Shown piece after piece: positions 873-38,436 of a DNA stretch of 44,222 bases; the first letter of the stretch is position 1; the number at the start of each line of letters is the position of its first letter. The position numbers were made by a program, and so were the translations under genes. Origin of the DNA: an uncultured Algimonas sp. (lineage in GTDB: Bacteria; Pseudomonadota; Alphaproteobacteria; Caulobacterales; Maricaulaceae). The notes under the pieces are model-generated. The model was given only the letters and a program-made list of their open reading frames with translations. It had not been told where the DNA came from and ran no database searches. The stretch is from contig NZ_CANMJB010000014.1 in the NCBI RefSeq assembly GCF_947498175.1, forward strand, positions 1-44,222, written 5' to 3'.

Positions 873-1922
873 ATGTCGATCGCGACCCCCTCACGGCTGG
901 ACCATGTGCAGGCCCTGCGGGGACTGGCGGCCATGCTCGTGCTGTTGGCGCATCTGGCCCTGATCGAACGCCGTAGCTTGGCCGACCCCTTCCTGCCCGT
1001 CTCCATGGAATGGGGGATGATGGGGGTGGACCTGTTCTTCGTCATCAGCGGGTTCATCATGGTGTTCGTCACGCGCGACTGGCGCGGCGGCGGCGGCGGC
1101 GTGCCCGAATTCCTTTTCGCCCGGGCGACACGCATCTATCCTCTTTACTGGGTTGTCACGGCCGCGCTGCTGCTCGTCTGGGTCGTGCGTCCGGACCTCG
1201 TCTTCTCCAGCTCGCCCAACGATCCGCAATGGCTGAACACACTGCTGCTCGTGCCGTCCGCCGCCTATCCGCTGCTCGAAGTCGGCTGGACGCTGGTCTA
1301 CGAGATGATGTTCTACGTCCTGTTCGCGCTCATCCTGTTTCTTCCGGCCAAGGTTCGACCGGCGGGCCTCGCCGTGTGGGCCGCGGCCGTCATCGTGGGC
1401 CACGTCGGCGGATGGCAGGCGGCGGGCGCCTTGGCGTTCCACCTGTTCAGCCCGCTGACCCTCGAATTCCTCGCCGGCACGGCCGTGGCGCTGATCTATC
1501 TGCGCATGCGTGGAAACCGAACCGTCGCCTTCGCGCTCGTCCTGGCGGGACTGGCAGGTCTGGCCGTCTGGTTCTTCATCGGCGGAGCGTTCCAGGACCA
1601 GGGGGCGCGCGTCCTGCGGCTGACGCTGCCGGCCTGCGCGCTGCTGCTCGGCGCGGCTTGGCTGGACCGGCACGGCGCGACCGCACCGGCTTTCGCCGTG
1701 CGGCTCGGCGATTGGAGCTACTCCCTTTATCTGACCCATCTGCTCAGCCTGGTGCTGGTGGAAAAACTGTGGGGTCTGGCCGGTCTGGAAGGCCTGCCTG
1801 CACCGGTCTTCCTGATCGTCGCGGTCGGGACGGCTTTGGTCATCGCGGCGCTGACCTACCGCCTGATCGAGAAGCCCTTGATCGACAGGGCGCGCGGCGC
1901 CCGCAAACGGCTTTTTCCCTAG
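873..1922 (+). CDS. Acyltransferase 3 family membrane protein (OafA/YrhL-like)
   Basis: A 349-residue polytopic inner-membrane protein. The N-terminal LDHVQALRGLAAMLVLLAH block and the DLFFVISGFIM segment are the classical acyltransferase-3 signature, and about ten hydrophobic helices follow. Members transfer acyl groups (often O-acetyl) to sugars of O-antigen, exopolysaccharide or membrane glycolipids; the acceptor here is unknown. I chose ATG 873 (MSIATPS) over the upstream ATG 843 because AGAGG precedes it and homologues begin close to the LDHVQALRG motif. The stop shares the four bases CTAG with the convergent activase gene. Confidence 0.9.
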   Translation: MSIATPSRLDHVQALRGLAAMLVLLAHLALIERRSLADPFLPVSMEWGMMGVDLFFVISGFIMVFVTRDWRGGGGGVPEFLFARATRIYPLYWVVTAALLLVWVVRPDLVFSSSPNDPQWLNTLLLVPSAAYPLLEVGWTLVYEMMFYVLFALILFLPAKVRPAGLAVWAAAVIVGHVGGWQAAGALAFHLFSPLTLEFLAGTAVALIYLRMRGNRTVAFALVLAGLAGLAVWFFIGGAFQDQGARVLRLTLPACALLLGAAWLDRHGATAPAFAVRLGDWSYSLYLTHLLSLVLVEKLWGLAGLEGLPAPVFLIVAVGTALVIAALTYRLIEKPLIDRARGARKRLFP

Positions 1923-3883
1923 CGCGCGCGGCCCGCGCCCTGGCGGCTCCCACCCCGGCGGCCCGCGCCCCGGCGGCCCCCGCCCCGGCGGCCCTTGGCG
2001 TTGCCGGATCCTTGCGGCGCGCTGGGGAATGCCATCGCCTCCACGAAATAGTCCTGGAAGCGCGGCTCCAACGCCGTCTCGATCTTGACCACGTCGCGCA
2101 CGGCGTCGCGGATGCGGTCCCGCTGGCTCCTATCCGTCAGACACAGGGCCGCGCCCATCCCGGCCGCGTTGCCGACCGCCTTGATCGTGTCCGCCCCGTT
2201 GTGGGGGATGATCCCGATTTCGGCGACATAGTCTGGGTCGAGATGGGTCCCGAACGCACCCGCCAGCAGCACTTCGTCGAAACTTCCGCACTCCAATTCT
2301 TCCGCAACCAGCCGCGCGCCGGCCATCAGGGCCGCCTTGGCGAGCTGGACGGCGCGGATGTCCGTCTGTTTCAGCGTGATGTCGCCGATCAGGCGGTAGG
2401 TCGCCACGCCGCCCTCTTCGGTGAACCGGTCGGGCGCCGTTCCGGTCCGGAACAGACCGGACCGGTCGATGAGCCCCGCGCGAGCCAGTTCGACCATGAC
2501 CTCGAAGATCGCCGAGCCGCACAGGCCGGGCACGGCATGATCGCCGATCGTGTCATCCGTCAGCCAGTCGTCATGGCCGATGATCCTGACCTGGCAGTCG
2601 AACGTCACGGGGTTGATGCGCAACCGCTCCACGGCGCCTTCGCAAGCGCGCACGCCGCAGCTGATCTCCGCGCCTTCCAGCGCCGGACCGGTCGGGGAGC
2701 TGGCGGCGGCGACCTTGCCGTCGTGGGTCAGCACGAGTTCGGCATTGGTGCCGATATCGACCAGCAGGACGGATCGGCCGTCCATCCGGTCCATCTGCGT
2801 CAGATAGGCGGCGGCCGTGTCCGCTCCGACATGCCCGCCGATCAGCGGCAGGAGCGACACGCGCGCCGCCCGGTCCAAGCCGAGATCCAGCATGTCGCCC
2901 GGCAGGTCGAGCCAGTCCTTGACCGCGAGCGTGAAGGGCGACTGACCCAATGGTGTCGGATCCACGCCGATCAGCGTGTGGTGCATGATCGGATTGCCGA
3001 CGCAGACCAGTTCGAGAATCTGGTCCGCCTCCGCCCCGACCGCCTCGCGCGCTTGGGCGATCATCTCTCGCAGCTGGCCTTGCACGGCTCCGGCCAGTTT
3101 CTCCTGCCCGTCCGCGTTCATCATGACGTAGCTGACCCGGCTCATCACGTCCTCGCCGAAGCGGATCTGCGGGTTCATGGCGGAAGATTGATGCACGAGC
3201 GCGCCCGTGCGCAAGTCGTAGAGATAGAGCGCGACCGAGGTCGAGCCGATGTCGATCGCCGCGCCGTAGAGCCCTTCGCGGTCGGGCGGCCAAAGGGCGA
3301 TGACGTCGGTTTCGTCGCGGATCACCGCGATCAACGTGCGGTCATGCTCCGCGAGCAGGGGCTGGATTTTCGTGACGAGGTCCGGCGCGACTCGCAGGTC
3401 TCCGCTCAACTGCTCGATCAGGCTTTCCGTGTCGGACAGATGGTCGTGCAGGGTCGGCTCGGGCAGTCTGACCATCTGCAGCCGGATCGGCGGATCAACC
3501 GGTCCCGGCAGATCGAACGCCGCCTTGCGGATGGCGCTCTGCGTATGGCGGGCGTGCGGTGGAATGTCGATGACGACATCGCCCATGATCTTGGCGCGGC
3601 AGGCCAGGCGCAAACCGTCGGCCATGTCGCCGTCATGAACGGCCTTCTTCTCCGCCGGGCGGAGCTTGAACAGCGCGTCTTCGGTGACGTTCAAGCCGAA
3701 TTTCGAATGGTGGCCGGTCTGGAGCGAACATTGGCAGCGTTTGCAGATGCCGTTGCCGCCGCAGACCGACTTGATGTCCACACCCGCGCGCAGGGCGACA
3801 TCGTAGACGGATTCGCCGGGTTCGGACGTGGTCTGGACGCCCGCTGGCGTGAAGACGATCCTGTGCTTAGCCGCGTCGGCCAC
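1919..3883 (-). CDS. Corrinoid reductive activase (2Fe-2S ferredoxin + ASKHA/DUF4445)
   Basis: A 654-residue RamA/RACE-type protein. An N-terminal plant-type ferredoxin domain carries Cys41, Cys47, Cys50 and Cys95, the pattern for one 2Fe-2S cluster. From about residue 200 an ASKHA ATPase-like region (GAAIDIGSTSVALYL, LLVDIGTNAEL, LLAGAFGTHLD) forms the DUF4445 part. Such proteins use reducing power and ATP to bring inactive Co(II) corrinoid back to Co(I). The gene is last in the corrinoid operon; its GTG start overlaps the methyltransferase gene by 17 bases and is preceded by GGAGG. Its C-terminus is an unusual Arg/Gly-rich tail of about 25 residues coded by GC-rich near-tandem DNA (about 1922-2000). 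Confidence 0.92.
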   Translation of the reverse strand: MADAAKHRIVFTPAGVQTTSEPGESVYDVALRAGVDIKSVCGGNGICKRCQCSLQTGHHSKFGLNVTEDALFKLRPAEKKAVHDGDMADGLRLACRAKIMGDVVIDIPPHARHTQSAIRKAAFDLPGPVDPPIRLQMVRLPEPTLHDHLSDTESLIEQLSGDLRVAPDLVTKIQPLLAEHDRTLIAVIRDETDVIALWPPDREGLYGAAIDIGSTSVALYLYDLRTGALVHQSSAMNPQIRFGEDVMSRVSYVMMNADGQEKLAGAVQGQLREMIAQAREAVGAEADQILELVCVGNPIMHHTLIGVDPTPLGQSPFTLAVKDWLDLPGDMLDLGLDRAARVSLLPLIGGHVGADTAAAYLTQMDRMDGRSVLLVDIGTNAELVLTHDGKVAAASSPTGPALEGAEISCGVRACEGAVERLRINPVTFDCQVRIIGHDDWLTDDTIGDHAVPGLCGSAIFEVMVELARAGLIDRSGLFRTGTAPDRFTEEGGVATYRLIGDITLKQTDIRAVQLAKAALMAGARLVAEELECGSFDEVLLAGAFGTHLDPDYVAEIGIIPHNGADTIKAVGNAAGMGAALCLTDRSQRDRIRDAVRDVVKIETALEPRFQDYFVEAMAFPSAPQGSGNAKGRRGGGRRGAGRRGGSRQGAGRAR

Positions 3884-4790
3884 GTCGGCCTCCGCCGCGA
3901 CGCCCGCCCCGGCGGCCGCCGTCGCCCCCTTCGCCGGACGCGGATTTCGGGCGGTTCATCGAAATCCAGTTGGCGCAGTCCGGATCGTTGCCGGCCAACA
4001 TGTCGCCGGCCTTGATCGCCGGGACGAGGCCTTCGTCGTACACGTTCAGGATCGCGCTGGTCATGCCCGCCGCCTGCAACATCGGCAGGAAGGCGTTGTG
4101 GACGGCGTGCCGGTTGGGCAGGCCGAACGCGACGTTGGACGCACCGCAGGTCGTGTTGACGCCGAGCTCCTCGCGCAGGCGCCGGACCAGACGGAACACG
4201 TCCTTGCCCGCGCTGTTCACCGCGCCGATCGGCATGACGAGCGGGTCGACCACCACGTCCTCGGCCTTGATGCCATAGTCCGCCGCGCGCTCCACGATGC
4301 GCTTGGCGACCTCGAAGCGGACATCCGGGTCTTCGCTGATCCCGGTGTCGTCGTTGGAAATCGCCACGACGGCGCAATCATGTTTCCGGATGAGCGGCAG
4401 GACGAATTCGAGGCTTTCCTCCTCGCCTGTCACGGAGTTGACGAGCGGACGGCCCTTATAGGCGGCCAGACCGGATTGAAGGGCGGGCTTGACCGAACTG
4501 TCGATCACGAGCGGCGCGTCGACCACACCGTCCTGCAGCAGGGTGATGACTTCGGACATGATCTTGGCTTCGTCGGTCAGCGGCACGCCGACATTGACGT
4601 CCAGCACTTGCGCGCCCGCTTCGACCTGCGTCTTGGCTTCCTTCTCCACGCGCCAGTAATTGCCCTCTTTCAGCTCCTTGGCGAATTTCGGGCGGTTGGT
4701 CGGATTGATGCGCTCGCCGATCATGACGAAAGGCTGGTCGAAGCCGATCACCACTTCCTGGGTGGGCGAGGTGAGAACGGTGCGGGCCAT
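3867..4790 (-). CDS. Methyltetrahydrofolate:corrinoid methyltransferase (pterin-binding domain)
   Basis: A 307-residue protein with a DHPS-like TIM barrel of the MetH-module-2/MtgA/AcsE type. Visible motifs are the IGERINPTNRP start, VEAGAQVLDVNVG, PLVIDSS, LVNSVTGEEES and the TTCGASNVAFGLPNR loop. These enzymes move a methyl group between N5-methyl-THF and a cob(I)alamin protein, which is encoded two genes upstream. The last roughly 20 residues form a Gly/Arg-rich tail similar in character to the tail of the next gene product, which is not part of the barrel. It starts 9 bases after the DUF1638 gene with AGAGG upstream. Direction of methyl transfer (methionine synthesis or demethylation) is not visible from this gene. 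Confidence 0.92.
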   Translation of the reverse strand: MARTVLTSPTQEVVIGFDQPFVMIGERINPTNRPKFAKELKEGNYWRVEKEAKTQVEAGAQVLDVNVGVPLTDEAKIMSEVITLLQDGVVDAPLVIDSSVKPALQSGLAAYKGRPLVNSVTGEEESLEFVLPLIRKHDCAVVAISNDDTGISEDPDVRFEVAKRIVERAADYGIKAEDVVVDPLVMPIGAVNSAGKDVFRLVRRLREELGVNTTCGASNVAFGLPNRHAVHNAFLPMLQAAGMTSAILNVYDEGLVPAIKAGDMLAGNDPDCANWISMNRPKSASGEGGDGGRRGGRRGGGRRGRRG

Positions 4791-4799
4791 GGGAAACCT

Positions 4800-5402
4800 C
4801 TAGGCTGCCAAAGGGGTGGAAAGGCGCTCAAGGTCGCGCGCGAAAGCCATGAGCCCGGTGGGGCGGTGTTCGAAAGCCAGGCCGAGCCTGGCGGCGGCGA
4901 CGTTGGCGTTGGCGAGCAGATCGTCGTCGTCCGTCTGAGACAGGAAGACCAGCCGCTTGTAATGGCCGAAATACAGGTCGCGCAGTTCCGGCTTGCGGTC
5001 CAGGCCGAGCGGGCGGATCACCATGGTCTCGAACTGGCGGGCGAGAAAGTCGGTCAGGAAGAACGTGCCGAGCTCTTCTTCCATCATTGCGTCGAATTCG
5101 CTCAGGCCGGCGAAGAAGGCATAGCAATGCGCGCCCGGCAACCGTTCGAGCCCGCGCGCCGCACATAAGCGGTCCAGCGCTCCGCCCGTGCCGCAATCCC
5201 CGAAGGCGATGACGGTGCGCTCATAGGCGCTGCCGGTCTCGTCCAGAATGCGTTCGAGGGCGGGCACGATCCGTTGCGGGCGGTTGTGCAGCGTTGCAGG
5301 CACGCAGCGCAGGTCGAAGGCCGGAAGCTGGTCGCTGAGCGCCCTTACTTCGCGCGCCAATGCGCCGCACGCTATGATCAGCGTTTTCGCCGCCGCGGTC
5401 AT
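4800..5402 (-). CDS. DUF1638 protein of the corrinoid operon
   Basis: A 200-residue cytoplasmic protein of the DUF1638 family, whose members sit beside corrinoid methyltransferase genes in many bacteria and archaea but have no settled role. Cysteines occur in IIACGALAREV, AFGDCGTGGALDRLCAARG and GAHCYAFFAG, enough for a metal or corrinoid site, though that is conjecture. The start at 5402 (MTAAAKTLI) overlaps the stop of the corrinoid gene in an ATGA arrangement, implying translational coupling; the longer frame to 5531 is a shadow of the upstream gene. The context suggests a helper in corrinoid loading, methyl transfer or activation. Confidence 0.88.
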   Translation of the reverse strand: MTAAAKTLIIACGALAREVRALSDQLPAFDLRCVPATLHNRPQRIVPALERILDETGSAYERTVIAFGDCGTGGALDRLCAARGLERLPGAHCYAFFAGLSEFDAMMEEELGTFFLTDFLARQFETMVIRPLGLDRKPELRDLYFGHYKRLVFLSQTDDDDLLANANVAAARLGLAFEHRPTGLMAFARDLERLSTPLAA

Positions 5403-6088
5403 GGGCGGTTGACGCCCATGAAGCGCTTGGCCAGTTCCACCGTGTTGGAGGCGTCGCCGCCATATTCGGTCGCGCCGATGGCGTCCGCGAATTCCTGGTT
5501 CACCGGCGCGCCCCCGACGAAGATGCCGCAATCCTTGCGCAGGCCGCGCTTTTCGAATTCCTCGATCACCACGCCCATGTAAGGCATGGTCGTGGTCAGC
5601 AGCGCGCTCATGCCCAGCAGGTCGGGATTGAATTCGTCATAGGCCTTCAGGAATTCCTCGACATCGGTGTTGATGCCCAGATCCATCACCTCGAAGCCCG
5701 CCCCTTCCAGCATCATGGCGACGAGGTTCTTGCCGATATCGTGGATGTCGCCCTTCACTGTGCCAATCACGACCCGGCCCGTGGGCTTGACCGCGTCGTT
5801 GGCCGCCAGGATCGGGCGCAGCAGTTCCATGCCGCCCTTCATGGCGTTGGCCGCGCTCAGCACTTCGGGCACGAACAGGATGCCGTCGCCGAAATCCAGC
5901 CCGACGATGCGCATAGCCTCGACCAGGCTTTCGGTCAGGATCGCATTGGCGTCCCAACCCCGGTCCAGCAGGATCTGCGTGCCTTCGGCGATCTCCGGAC
6001 CCATGCCGTCATAGAGGTCGTCCTTCATCTGTTCGACGAGCTCGTCGTCGGACAGGTCGGCCAGGATCAATTCGGGTTCGTCACTCAT
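5399..6088 (-). CDS. Corrinoid (B12-binding) methyl-carrier protein
   Basis: A 229-residue protein with a MetH/MtbC-like helical cap domain (about residues 1-95, including FVPEVLSAANAMKGG) and a Rossmann-type cobalamin domain. The base-off/His-on motif GDIHDIGKN places the cobalt-ligating histidine at His116, and the C-terminal GGAPV loop binds the nucleotide tail. It would carry the methyl group between the pterin enzyme and a substrate methyltransferase. It has no SAM-dependent reactivation domain, so the activase encoded last in the operon probably supplies reactivation. The ATG at 6088 has GAGG upstream; the longer frame to 6514 covers the neighbouring divergent gene and is rejected. Confidence 0.93.
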   Translation of the reverse strand: MSDEPELILADLSDDELVEQMKDDLYDGMGPEIAEGTQILLDRGWDANAILTESLVEAMRIVGLDFGDGILFVPEVLSAANAMKGGMELLRPILAANDAVKPTGRVVIGTVKGDIHDIGKNLVAMMLEGAGFEVMDLGINTDVEEFLKAYDEFNPDLLGMSALLTTTMPYMGVVIEEFEKRGLRKDCGIFVGGAPVNQEFADAIGATEYGGDASNTVELAKRFMGVNRP

Positions 6089-6124
6089 GCCGCGAGCCTC
6101 TAGGGGAGAGGGGTTAAGAAGTCG

Positions 6125-6144
6125 ATATAAAAAAACCTTTATAT
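6125..6144. promoter_or_regulatory. Perfect palindrome ATATAAA-N6-TTTATAT, likely operator
   Basis: A perfect 7-6-7 inverted repeat in an AT-rich island between the corrinoid operon (start 6088) and the DUF1289 gene (start 6173). Its symmetry, length and place suit a winged-helix dimer such as an ArsR-family repressor. From memory, SahR-type regulators of methionine metabolism in Proteobacteria use similar ATA...TAT palindromes; I could not check this. I see no cobalamin riboswitch here. Confidence 0.6.
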
Positions 6145-6172
6145 GCCCGTTTCGTTCCGCTACAGGGCTTTC

Positions 6173-6436
6173 ATGGCCAATGACATGACACCGGAGGAGA
6201 TCGCGGCGCTCGAACCCGTGGACAGTCCGTGCGTCCTGGTCTGCGCGATGGACAAGGATAGCGGCTTCTGTTTCGGATGCGGCCGCACGACCGACGAGAT
6301 CGCCTATTGGGCCTTGCGGACCAAGGATGAACGCGACGCCATCATGGCCGAATTGCCTGCGCGCCTGCCGCCGTTGAAGAAAAAGCTGGAGGAGCGCCGC
6401 GCCCGGCGCCGCGTCAATCGCCGCAACCGTGGCTGA
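6173..6436 (+). CDS. DUF1289 small Cys4 protein
   Basis: An 87-residue protein with the DUF1289 core SPCVLVCAMD...GFCFGCGRT. Counted from the start at 6173, Cys20, Cys24, Cys33 and Cys36 form a likely zinc or Fe-S site, and an Arg/Lys-rich tail follows. Function is unknown. Starts at 6143 or 6185 are also possible; 6173 (MANDMTPEE) is the usual length for the family. It is divergent from the corrinoid operon and shares its regulatory gap, although 6143 would put the operator inside the gene. Confidence 0.85.
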   Translation: MANDMTPEEIAALEPVDSPCVLVCAMDKDSGFCFGCGRTTDEIAYWALRTKDERDAIMAELPARLPPLKKKLEERRARRRVNRRNRG

Positions 6437-38360: not shown

Positions 38361-38436
38361 TGGCTGGGGTGGCTGGACTCGAACCAGCGGTACACGCTAC
38401 CAAAAAGCGTTGCCTTACCAACTTGGCTACACCCCA
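38361..38436 (-). tRNA. tRNA-Gln (anticodon TTG)
   Basis: A 76-base cloverleaf with CCA encoded: acceptor TGGGGTG/CACCCCA, D-arm GCC/GGC, anticodon stem ACGCT/AGCGT with loop TTTTGGT (anticodon at 38401-38403), a five-base variable loop, and T-arm GCTGG/CCAGC with TTCGAGT. The pattern is typical of bacterial tRNA-Gln reading CAA/CAG. Confidence 0.97.

Follow-up and report, generated by a model that had tools for sequence, protein, structure and literature searches.

An operon of four minus-strand genes, in the order mtgC–DUF1638–mtgD–RamA-like activase, lies in a 44,222-nucleotide (nt) stretch of an uncultured Algimonas sp. genome (positions 1-44222 of contig C14, hereafter the window). The genome comprises 2,847,968 bases in 26 contigs and is given as 100% complete. 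All frames of the operon are open, with ends that overlap or nearly abut, and a palindrome precedes its first gene. Together with mtgE, a homocysteine methyltransferase gene on another contig, the operon very probably encodes a dedicated split cobalamin-dependent methionine synthase, its catalysis and regulation being read here from sequence. The genes and the operator are:

5399..6088, minus strand: mtgC, corrinoid (cobalamin) carrier, 229 amino acids, ATG start, TGA stop, His116 in GDIHDIG
4800..5402, minus strand: DUF1638 gene, 200 amino acids, PF07796; its ATG overlaps the mtgC stop as ATGA
3867..4790, minus strand: mtgD, methyltetrahydrofolate:corrinoid methyltransferase, 307 amino acids, PF00809 (Pterin_bind)
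1919..3883, minus strand: RamA/RACo-like activase gene, 654 amino acids, GTG start, overlaps mtgD; ferredoxin-like part and ASKHA domain
6125..6144, no strand assigned: SahR-type operator, ATATAAA-N6-TTTATAT with 0 mismatches, beginning 56 nt before the mtgC start
contig C4, 10528-11394, strand not stated: mtgE, stand-alone homocysteine methyltransferase

The operon and its partners in the genome

The original prediction for this DNA held that the modules joined in MetH are separate proteins here, and domain matches to MtgC and MtgD bear this out. MtgC matches the Pfam B12-binding_2 and B12-binding domains and has the histidine (His116) that had been picked out in its GDIHDIG motif; MtgC-like NCBIfam models match it below their cut-off, and positions 639-859 of the metH model also align. 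MtgD scores 338.7 bits against NCBIfam NF005719 (cut-off 259). The iron–sulfur/ASKHA activase named in the same prediction, along with DUF1638, is likewise recognized by Pfam and by its motifs: it matches PF17650, PF17651 and PF14574 (the RACo linker, middle and C-terminal domains), carries C-x5-C-x2-C near its N-terminus as well as DIGST, DIGT and GAFG, matches ferredoxin-type NCBIfam models below their cut-offs in its N-terminal part, and aligns over nearly its whole length with the solved RACo-type entry 3zyy (E 1e-64). Within the operon we found neither MttB nor a homocysteine module; the acceptor enzyme had been expected elsewhere, and the stand-alone mtgE lies on contig C4.

We searched the whole genome for the genes that could decide the matter. 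The metH profile TIGR02082 (E 0.01) returned three separate pieces, at model positions 42-322, 324-586 and 638-864, each scoring 143-149 bits against a cut-off of 1010.85. These pieces are MtgC and MtgD in the window and MtgE, which itself scores 450 bits against NF005718 (cut-off 338). The reactivation part of metH matches nothing anywhere in the genome under TIGR02082, and a classical MetH, whether a single chain or an adjacent pair that has a reactivation domain and scores over the cut-off of TIGR02082, is absent from the genome; with only three pieces returned, a complete metH hidden elsewhere is ruled out. PF06253, the MTTB/MtgB family, gave 0 matches in the genome at E 0.001 with a matching positive control from Methanosarcina acetivorans, which rules out an MttB partner. 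Neither a complete metH nor a co-regulated mttB-type gene, the pair that the original prediction had set against itself, is thus found in the genome. Present instead are stand-alone corrinoid, pterin and homocysteine proteins, a RamA-like activase and DUF1638, the full set of sequence features of a split methionine synthase. Compared with classical MetH (TIGR02082), the methyl-tetrahydrofolate (methyl-THF), corrinoid and homocysteine modules are homologous and the overall reaction is presumably the same, but the modules are separate chains and a RamA-like activase replaces the S-adenosylmethionine (SAM) reactivation domain.

The genome also holds a full-length metE, with a cobalamin riboswitch between a SahR-type operator and the gene. 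Because both elements precede it, metE fits a B12-free backup. CbiC, a single marker of de novo B12 synthesis, is found over its cut-off neither in this genome nor in 59 relatives, and on that one marker the organism probably scavenges B12. A second cobalamin riboswitch (L014:10489-10670, plus strand, on contig C4 of the same genome) is divergent from mtgE and precedes a TonB-dependent receptor, which probably serves B12 uptake.

The palindrome before mtgC had been likened to methionine-regulon operators, and the genes that share it agree. Across the genome, allowing up to 2 mismatches, it occurs at 6 sites compared with 2 for a reversed control pattern. The two perfect copies stand before the mtgC operon and before metE; a 1-mismatch copy stands before a gene (sahR) that combines an ArsR helix-turn-helix with a methyltransferase domain and is followed by metF; and a 2-mismatch copy precedes ahcY, with metK downstream. 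The remaining two sites may be chance. The mtgC operon, sahR-metF and ahcY-metK promoters thus have a 20-bp palindromic operator in common, and since copies precede metE, sahR-metF and ahcY-metK we assign it to the SahR type. The palindrome is consistent with a SahR operator as judged by the genes sharing it; the SahR regulon is described by Leyn et al. (PMC4239095; this and the comparisons below draw on the accessible parts of the cited papers). The mtgC operon would thereby occupy the place of metH in a SahR (S-adenosylhomocysteine) regulon. A divergent DUF1289 gene (window 6143-6436, plus strand) has its promoter region in common with the mtgC operon and could therefore also be controlled by the operator. 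Elsewhere in the window lies a tRNA gene (38364-38436, minus strand; Rfam RF00005).

Split corrinoid methionine synthases are already known as a kind, since PMC5764234 and PMC12478193 describe them in their accessible parts; the branch and the tails presented below go further. In Phaeobacter inhibens, three separate proteins make up methionine synthase, RamA-like and DUF1638 proteins are also important, and mutants are rescued by methionine (Price 2018, PMC5764234), in line with the mention, in the original prediction, of a split MetH with a RamA-like reactivator in the Roseobacter group. The P. inhibens set (PGA1_c13350, c16040, c13370, c15200 and c13340) resembles ours in its separate corrinoid, pterin and homocysteine proteins, its activase, its DUF1638 protein and its lack of a reactivation domain (PMC5764234); here, by contrast, the four genes from mtgC to the activase make up a single operon with a SahR-type operator, in a genome with a full-length, riboswitch-preceded metE and no match to the MttB family. 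Ruegeria pomeroyi MtgBCDE is similar in having MtgC, MtgD, an MtgE elsewhere in the genome, RamA and DUF1638, and its MtgC and MtgD serve both methionine synthesis and glycine betaine demethylation (Mausz 2025, PMC12478193). Our genome differs in having no MtgB (PF06253), so the betaine-demethylating half is missing. The methionine requirement of mutants has been shown for both P. inhibens and R. pomeroyi (PMC5764234, PMC12478193), and MtgBCDE-type systems are reported to be highly expressed across the oceans (PMC12478193).

The DUF1638 protein has a confident AlphaFold2 model (predicted local distance difference test, pLDDT, 93.9). Residues invariant in 59 sequences include C12, H39, C70, H92, C93 and D118, and the invariant cysteines and histidines among them (C12, H39, C70, H92, C93) suggest a metal or corrinoid site. 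A Foldseek search with the model brought up nothing convincing (the best E was 0.016, and TM-scores stayed below 0.4 among the 50 rows listed), the weak resemblances including arylmalonate decarboxylase and CbiX; among PDB sequences there is no relative (best E 0.09).

An MtgC branch without MtgB

Among 60 related genomes, our own (G000) included, 9 hold the split pieces. No metH was seen in 7 of these 9 (G000, G004, G007, G012, G015, G028 and G035; completeness 96% for G004, 85% for G007 and 70% for G012), and MTTB occurs in 3 of the 9 (G004, G028 and G035). The closed relative G015, a single contig, has the same split set and lacks both metH and MTTB. In a wider sample of 143 genomes drawn evenly from the class, DUF1638 is present in 27, MTTB in 27 and both in 25 (own genome included); the two that have DUF1638 but no MTTB are G000 and G151, the latter of which retains metH.

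A tree of 85 MtgC rows places G000, G006, G007, G015, the second MtgC of G028, L078 and L080 on one branch (support 98/97). The G000 row sits on a long branch, its exact place unsure, and G012 and G035 are not in the tree. All seven branch members, and G012 as well, have the operator before mtgC with 0 mismatches; in the five genomes of the branch (5/5) it stands at -54 to -56. Rows around the branch lack it (up to 1 mismatch): G028a, G004, L079 and L081, which have mtgB nearby, and L084, whose contig ends before any mtgB. Among our named loci, the best 80 of at least 518 relatives (Alpha- and Gammaproteobacteria, one Myxococcota record and Actinomycetota), the operator (up to 1 mismatch) lies no more than 300 nt from mtgC in just 2, each a member of this branch. 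The lineage thus has an MtgB-less MtgC branch under predicted SahR-type control that is apparently dedicated to methionine.

Some genomes fall outside the pattern. G005, whose MtgC is of the mtgB-linked type, nonetheless has an operator with 1 mismatch, and MTTB was not found in this 78% complete genome. G035 has MTTB, a 1-mismatch operator before mtgC and a perfect one before mtgE; its mtgC is interrupted by contig ends.

Several loci hold other combinations of these parts. G028 (L072, L073) encodes two MtgC paralogues, one near mtgB without the operator and the other beside the activase with a perfect operator. One Hellea metagenome-assembled genome (MAG; L080 and L084 bear the same isolate name) has both MtgC types, of which only one has a perfect operator. 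G004 (L061; 96% complete) encodes MtgC, MtgD, MtgE and two MTTB proteins with no DUF1638 match, an exception to the rule that DUF1638 accompanies the system. In Acidimicrobiia-type and Nocardioidaceae MAG contigs (L093, L096, L097, L100, L104 and L143), MtgC occurs with DUF1638 in 6/6, with MtgD in 4/6 and with the activase in 3/6; these loci lie beyond the proteobacterial groups given in the accessible part of Mausz 2025 (PMC12478193), and mis-binning is possible.

Arg/Gly-rich tails and an acidic carrier

Almost all of the counted enzymes that have to meet MtgC bear an Arg/Gly-rich extension, at the C-terminus of MtgD, MtgE and the activase and at the N-terminus of MtgB. MtgD, MtgE and the activase of our genome all end in this way, and its MtgC begins with an acidic arm:

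3870..3935, minus strand: Arg/Gly-rich C-terminal tail of MtgD, residues 286-307, net charge +8
1922..2005, minus strand: Arg/Gly-rich C-terminal tail of the activase, residues 627-654, net charge +10
6014..6088, minus strand: acidic arm at the N-terminus of MtgC, residues 1-25 (net charge -9), reaching into the cap domain with its later part

The MtgD tail is predicted to be disordered (pLDDT below 50 over residues 286-307 of the predicted structure). Inspected by eye across genomes of the family, the C-terminus is Arg-rich in MtgD of 9/9, MtgE of 8/8 and the activase of 7/7 genomes, and a basic run opens MtgB clearly in 4 of 5, the start of the other being unclear. For the named loci we scored a tail as at least 5 Arg in the last 16 residues, or in residues 2-26 for MtgB, and counted open reading frames (ORFs) of at least 150 amino acids with both ends in the locus and no overlap with a better ORF. 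This left 77 of 80 matched MtgC, 62 of 71 DUF1638, 61 of 64 MtgD, 55 of 56 activase, 48 of 50 MtgB and 9 of 11 MtgE sequences. C-terminal tails were present in 61/61 MtgD, 52/55 activase and 9/9 MtgE sequences and absent from MtgC (0/77) and DUF1638 (0/62). Only 17 of 606 other ORFs in the same loci have one, many of them by eye resembling spurious frames rich in guanine and cytosine (GC), which rules out a general habit of these genomes. The N-terminal tail of MtgB was found in 45/48, compared with 64/606 other ORFs. Enrichment is strong for each family (Fisher p <1e-13), with p-values that overstate independence since rows are related.

The misses are few and mostly near-misses. Of the three activases, L081 and L151 are still basic, and L155 is not basic and looks like a wrong frame; among the three MtgB sequences, L093 and L112 are Arg/Gly-rich slightly further in, and L155 is not. 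DUF1638 N-termini with 5 Arg (6/62) resemble the background of 64/606, and four of them look like misread starts or other sequence. Two Novosphingobium MAGs (L085:696-1409 and L086:10687-11400) encode a DUF1638 protein with a clear N-terminal Arg/Gly-rich extension of its own, absent from most other DUF1638 proteins.

The class sample, from which we left out matches with under 100 aligned residues or truncated at the end being scored, gave tails on 10/10 MtgE, 10/12 MtgD (in the other two the Arg run lies deeper in the sequence) and 1/1 activase, and on 0/26 MtgC and 0/29 DUF1638; 10 of these MtgD and 8 of these MtgE are among the matches listed, with 2 more of each from other loci. MtgB passed in 21/32 under a criterion of at least 6 Arg plus Lys; many that failed have a thinner or later basic run, and L196 and L197 have none with the chosen start.

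Related proteins outside the system lack the tails. Stand-alone homocysteine domains of two-part MetH, from 30 loci of relatives, have none (0/22, at most 2 Arg), and neither do homocysteine-methyltransferase paralogues outside the system (0/6, at most 4 Arg). Solved structures stop short of them in the same way: the methyltransferase 1f6y (262 amino acids) aligns as far as residue 279 of the 307 in MtgD, and 3zyy covers activase residues 5-620, leaving the tail in residues 621-654 unaligned. Two glycine betaine methyltransferases of the same sequence family as the MtgB of relatives, 2qne and 9yce, align to it from residues 27 and 32, past its basic N-terminal extension. A closer entry, 4yyc, aligns from MtgB residue 3 through the extension and has an Arg-rich start of its own. 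We take 1f6y to be from Moorella, 3zyy from Carboxydothermus and 2qne and 9yce from Desulfitobacterium, all anaerobes, and 4yyc from Sinorhizobium.

The carrier is charged in the opposite sense. Before its LYDG motif, the MtgC arm averages 11.2 Asp/Glu and 0.4 Lys/Arg over 77 sequences, and whole MtgC in the named loci has a mean net charge of -23; the solved homologue 1y80 aligns to MtgC only from residue 19. In the window, net charges are -25 for MtgC, -30 for the activase core and -12 for the MtgD core. Without tails, these acidic proteins should repel one another.

Charge complementarity of this kind points to docking tags for MtgC, a function to which we give roughly even chances on sequence evidence. 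A fuller version, about as open to doubt as to belief, takes the extensions as a common address tag on MtgB, MtgD, MtgE and the activase that would be read by the acidic arm. Such a tag would be a non-covalent counterpart of the MetH linkers, yielding a machine of swappable modules or a condensate, which new modules could join by gaining the tag, as DUF1638 may have done on the two Novosphingobium contigs; a Robiginitomaculaceae-like MtgC branch would then have dropped MtgB to become a pure methionine synthase under SahR.

The tails may also have nothing to do with MtgC, and serve nucleic-acid or polyphosphate binding or solubility, or reflect drift in GC-rich genomes; we hold this possible while leaning somewhat against it. 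Many proteins bind nucleic acids through RG-rich segments. A MetF-like protein just upstream of mtgD in L108 (11041-12030, checked as MTHFR) and a similar frame in L138 also end with 5 Arg in 16 residues, so that a tail alone is not proof of an MtgC client. However, tail Arg does not rise with GC content (Spearman 0.05 for MtgD, -0.02 for the activase, 0.02 for MtgB and -0.65 for MtgE, n = 9), which rules out GC-driven tails, and tails are still present where GC is 39-48%, encoded by a mixture of Arg codons. Their absence from the C-termini of MtgC and DUF1638 and from stand-alone MetH homocysteine domains also argues against an unrelated role.

Charged tails on the parts of a split methionine synthase are apparently undescribed so far. 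The main texts of PMC5764234, PMC12478193 and PMC12366255 make no mention of Arg-rich tails, and no title or abstract among the matches listed treats them (subscription papers and supplements were outside the search); the "tail" in the accessible part of a Desulfitobacterium MtgA paper (PMC7154762) is that of tetrahydrofolate.

Methionine synthesis or demethylation

For a dedicated split methionine synthase, we observe the gene content, the operators, the tails and the acidic arm directly, and the first two uphold the central claim of the original prediction, through the three metH pieces, MtgE, the missing MTTB and the operator copies. MtgD would transfer the methyl group from 5-methyl-THF to the cob(I)alamin of MtgC, from which MtgE, encoded on the other contig, would pass it to homocysteine. 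Cobalamin oxidized to cob(II) would be reduced on MtgC by the RamA-like activase, with DUF1638 assisting. The operon would stand in for metH in the SahR regulon, with MetE as a B12-free backup under the same operator and a cobalamin riboswitch. The tails of MtgD, MtgE and the activase may bring these modules to acidic MtgC, as linkers do in MetH, either by one-to-one contact of arm and tail or in a charge-driven condensate.

Some observations weigh against this account. G005 and G006 hold metH beside the split pieces. No operator precedes mtgE in any of the five genomes of the branch (0/5; up to 4 mismatches, 450 nt), so co-regulation of mtgE is not seen. The operon may be dispensable, since the genome also has metE. 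By analogy, MtgE need not use MtgC, because the P. inhibens homocysteine subunit Bmt works alone in vitro with betaine or dimethylsulfoniopropionate, according to the accessible part of the source (FEBS J 2025, PMC12366255).

That activity of Bmt also favours a demethylation system for glycine betaine or a similar compound, in which an unrecognized donor enzyme methylates MtgC, MtgD makes methyl-THF, and methionine comes from MetE and a stand-alone MtgE. The original prediction had named aerobic demethylation as its rival, and the relatives' system does additionally carry it out, R. pomeroyi MtgC serving glycine betaine demethylation (PMC12478193, accessible part), but the MtgB needed for it is missing here. 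The company of MTTB in 25 of the 27 DUF1638 genomes of the class sample points the same way as R. pomeroyi. We nonetheless consider demethylation improbable: PF06253 matches nothing in our genome or in closed G015, the operator is common to metE, sahR-metF and ahcY-metK, and the neighbouring mtgB-linked tree rows lack it.

Corrinoid methyl-donor families other than MTTB exist, and a donor enzyme from such a family, encoded elsewhere, would let the operon serve methionine synthesis and demethylation together. MtgC and MtgD do work in both directions in R. pomeroyi (PMC12478193, accessible part), but nothing in the operon hints at such a donor, no search having been aimed at other donor families, and we judge this dual role very improbable.

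The charged tails, and an operator tying the operon to the genes of the SAM cycle, go beyond what had been predicted for this DNA. In MetH the domains are tethered and here they are separate, which raises the question of how split corrinoid modules find one carrier in turn; a common charged tag, if true, makes the tether cheaply and directly testable. The MtgB-less branch would separate methionine synthesis from betaine demethylation. The other members of the genus mostly bear metH and two of them have both systems, a distribution that points to the split enzyme having taken over from metH inside a single genus.

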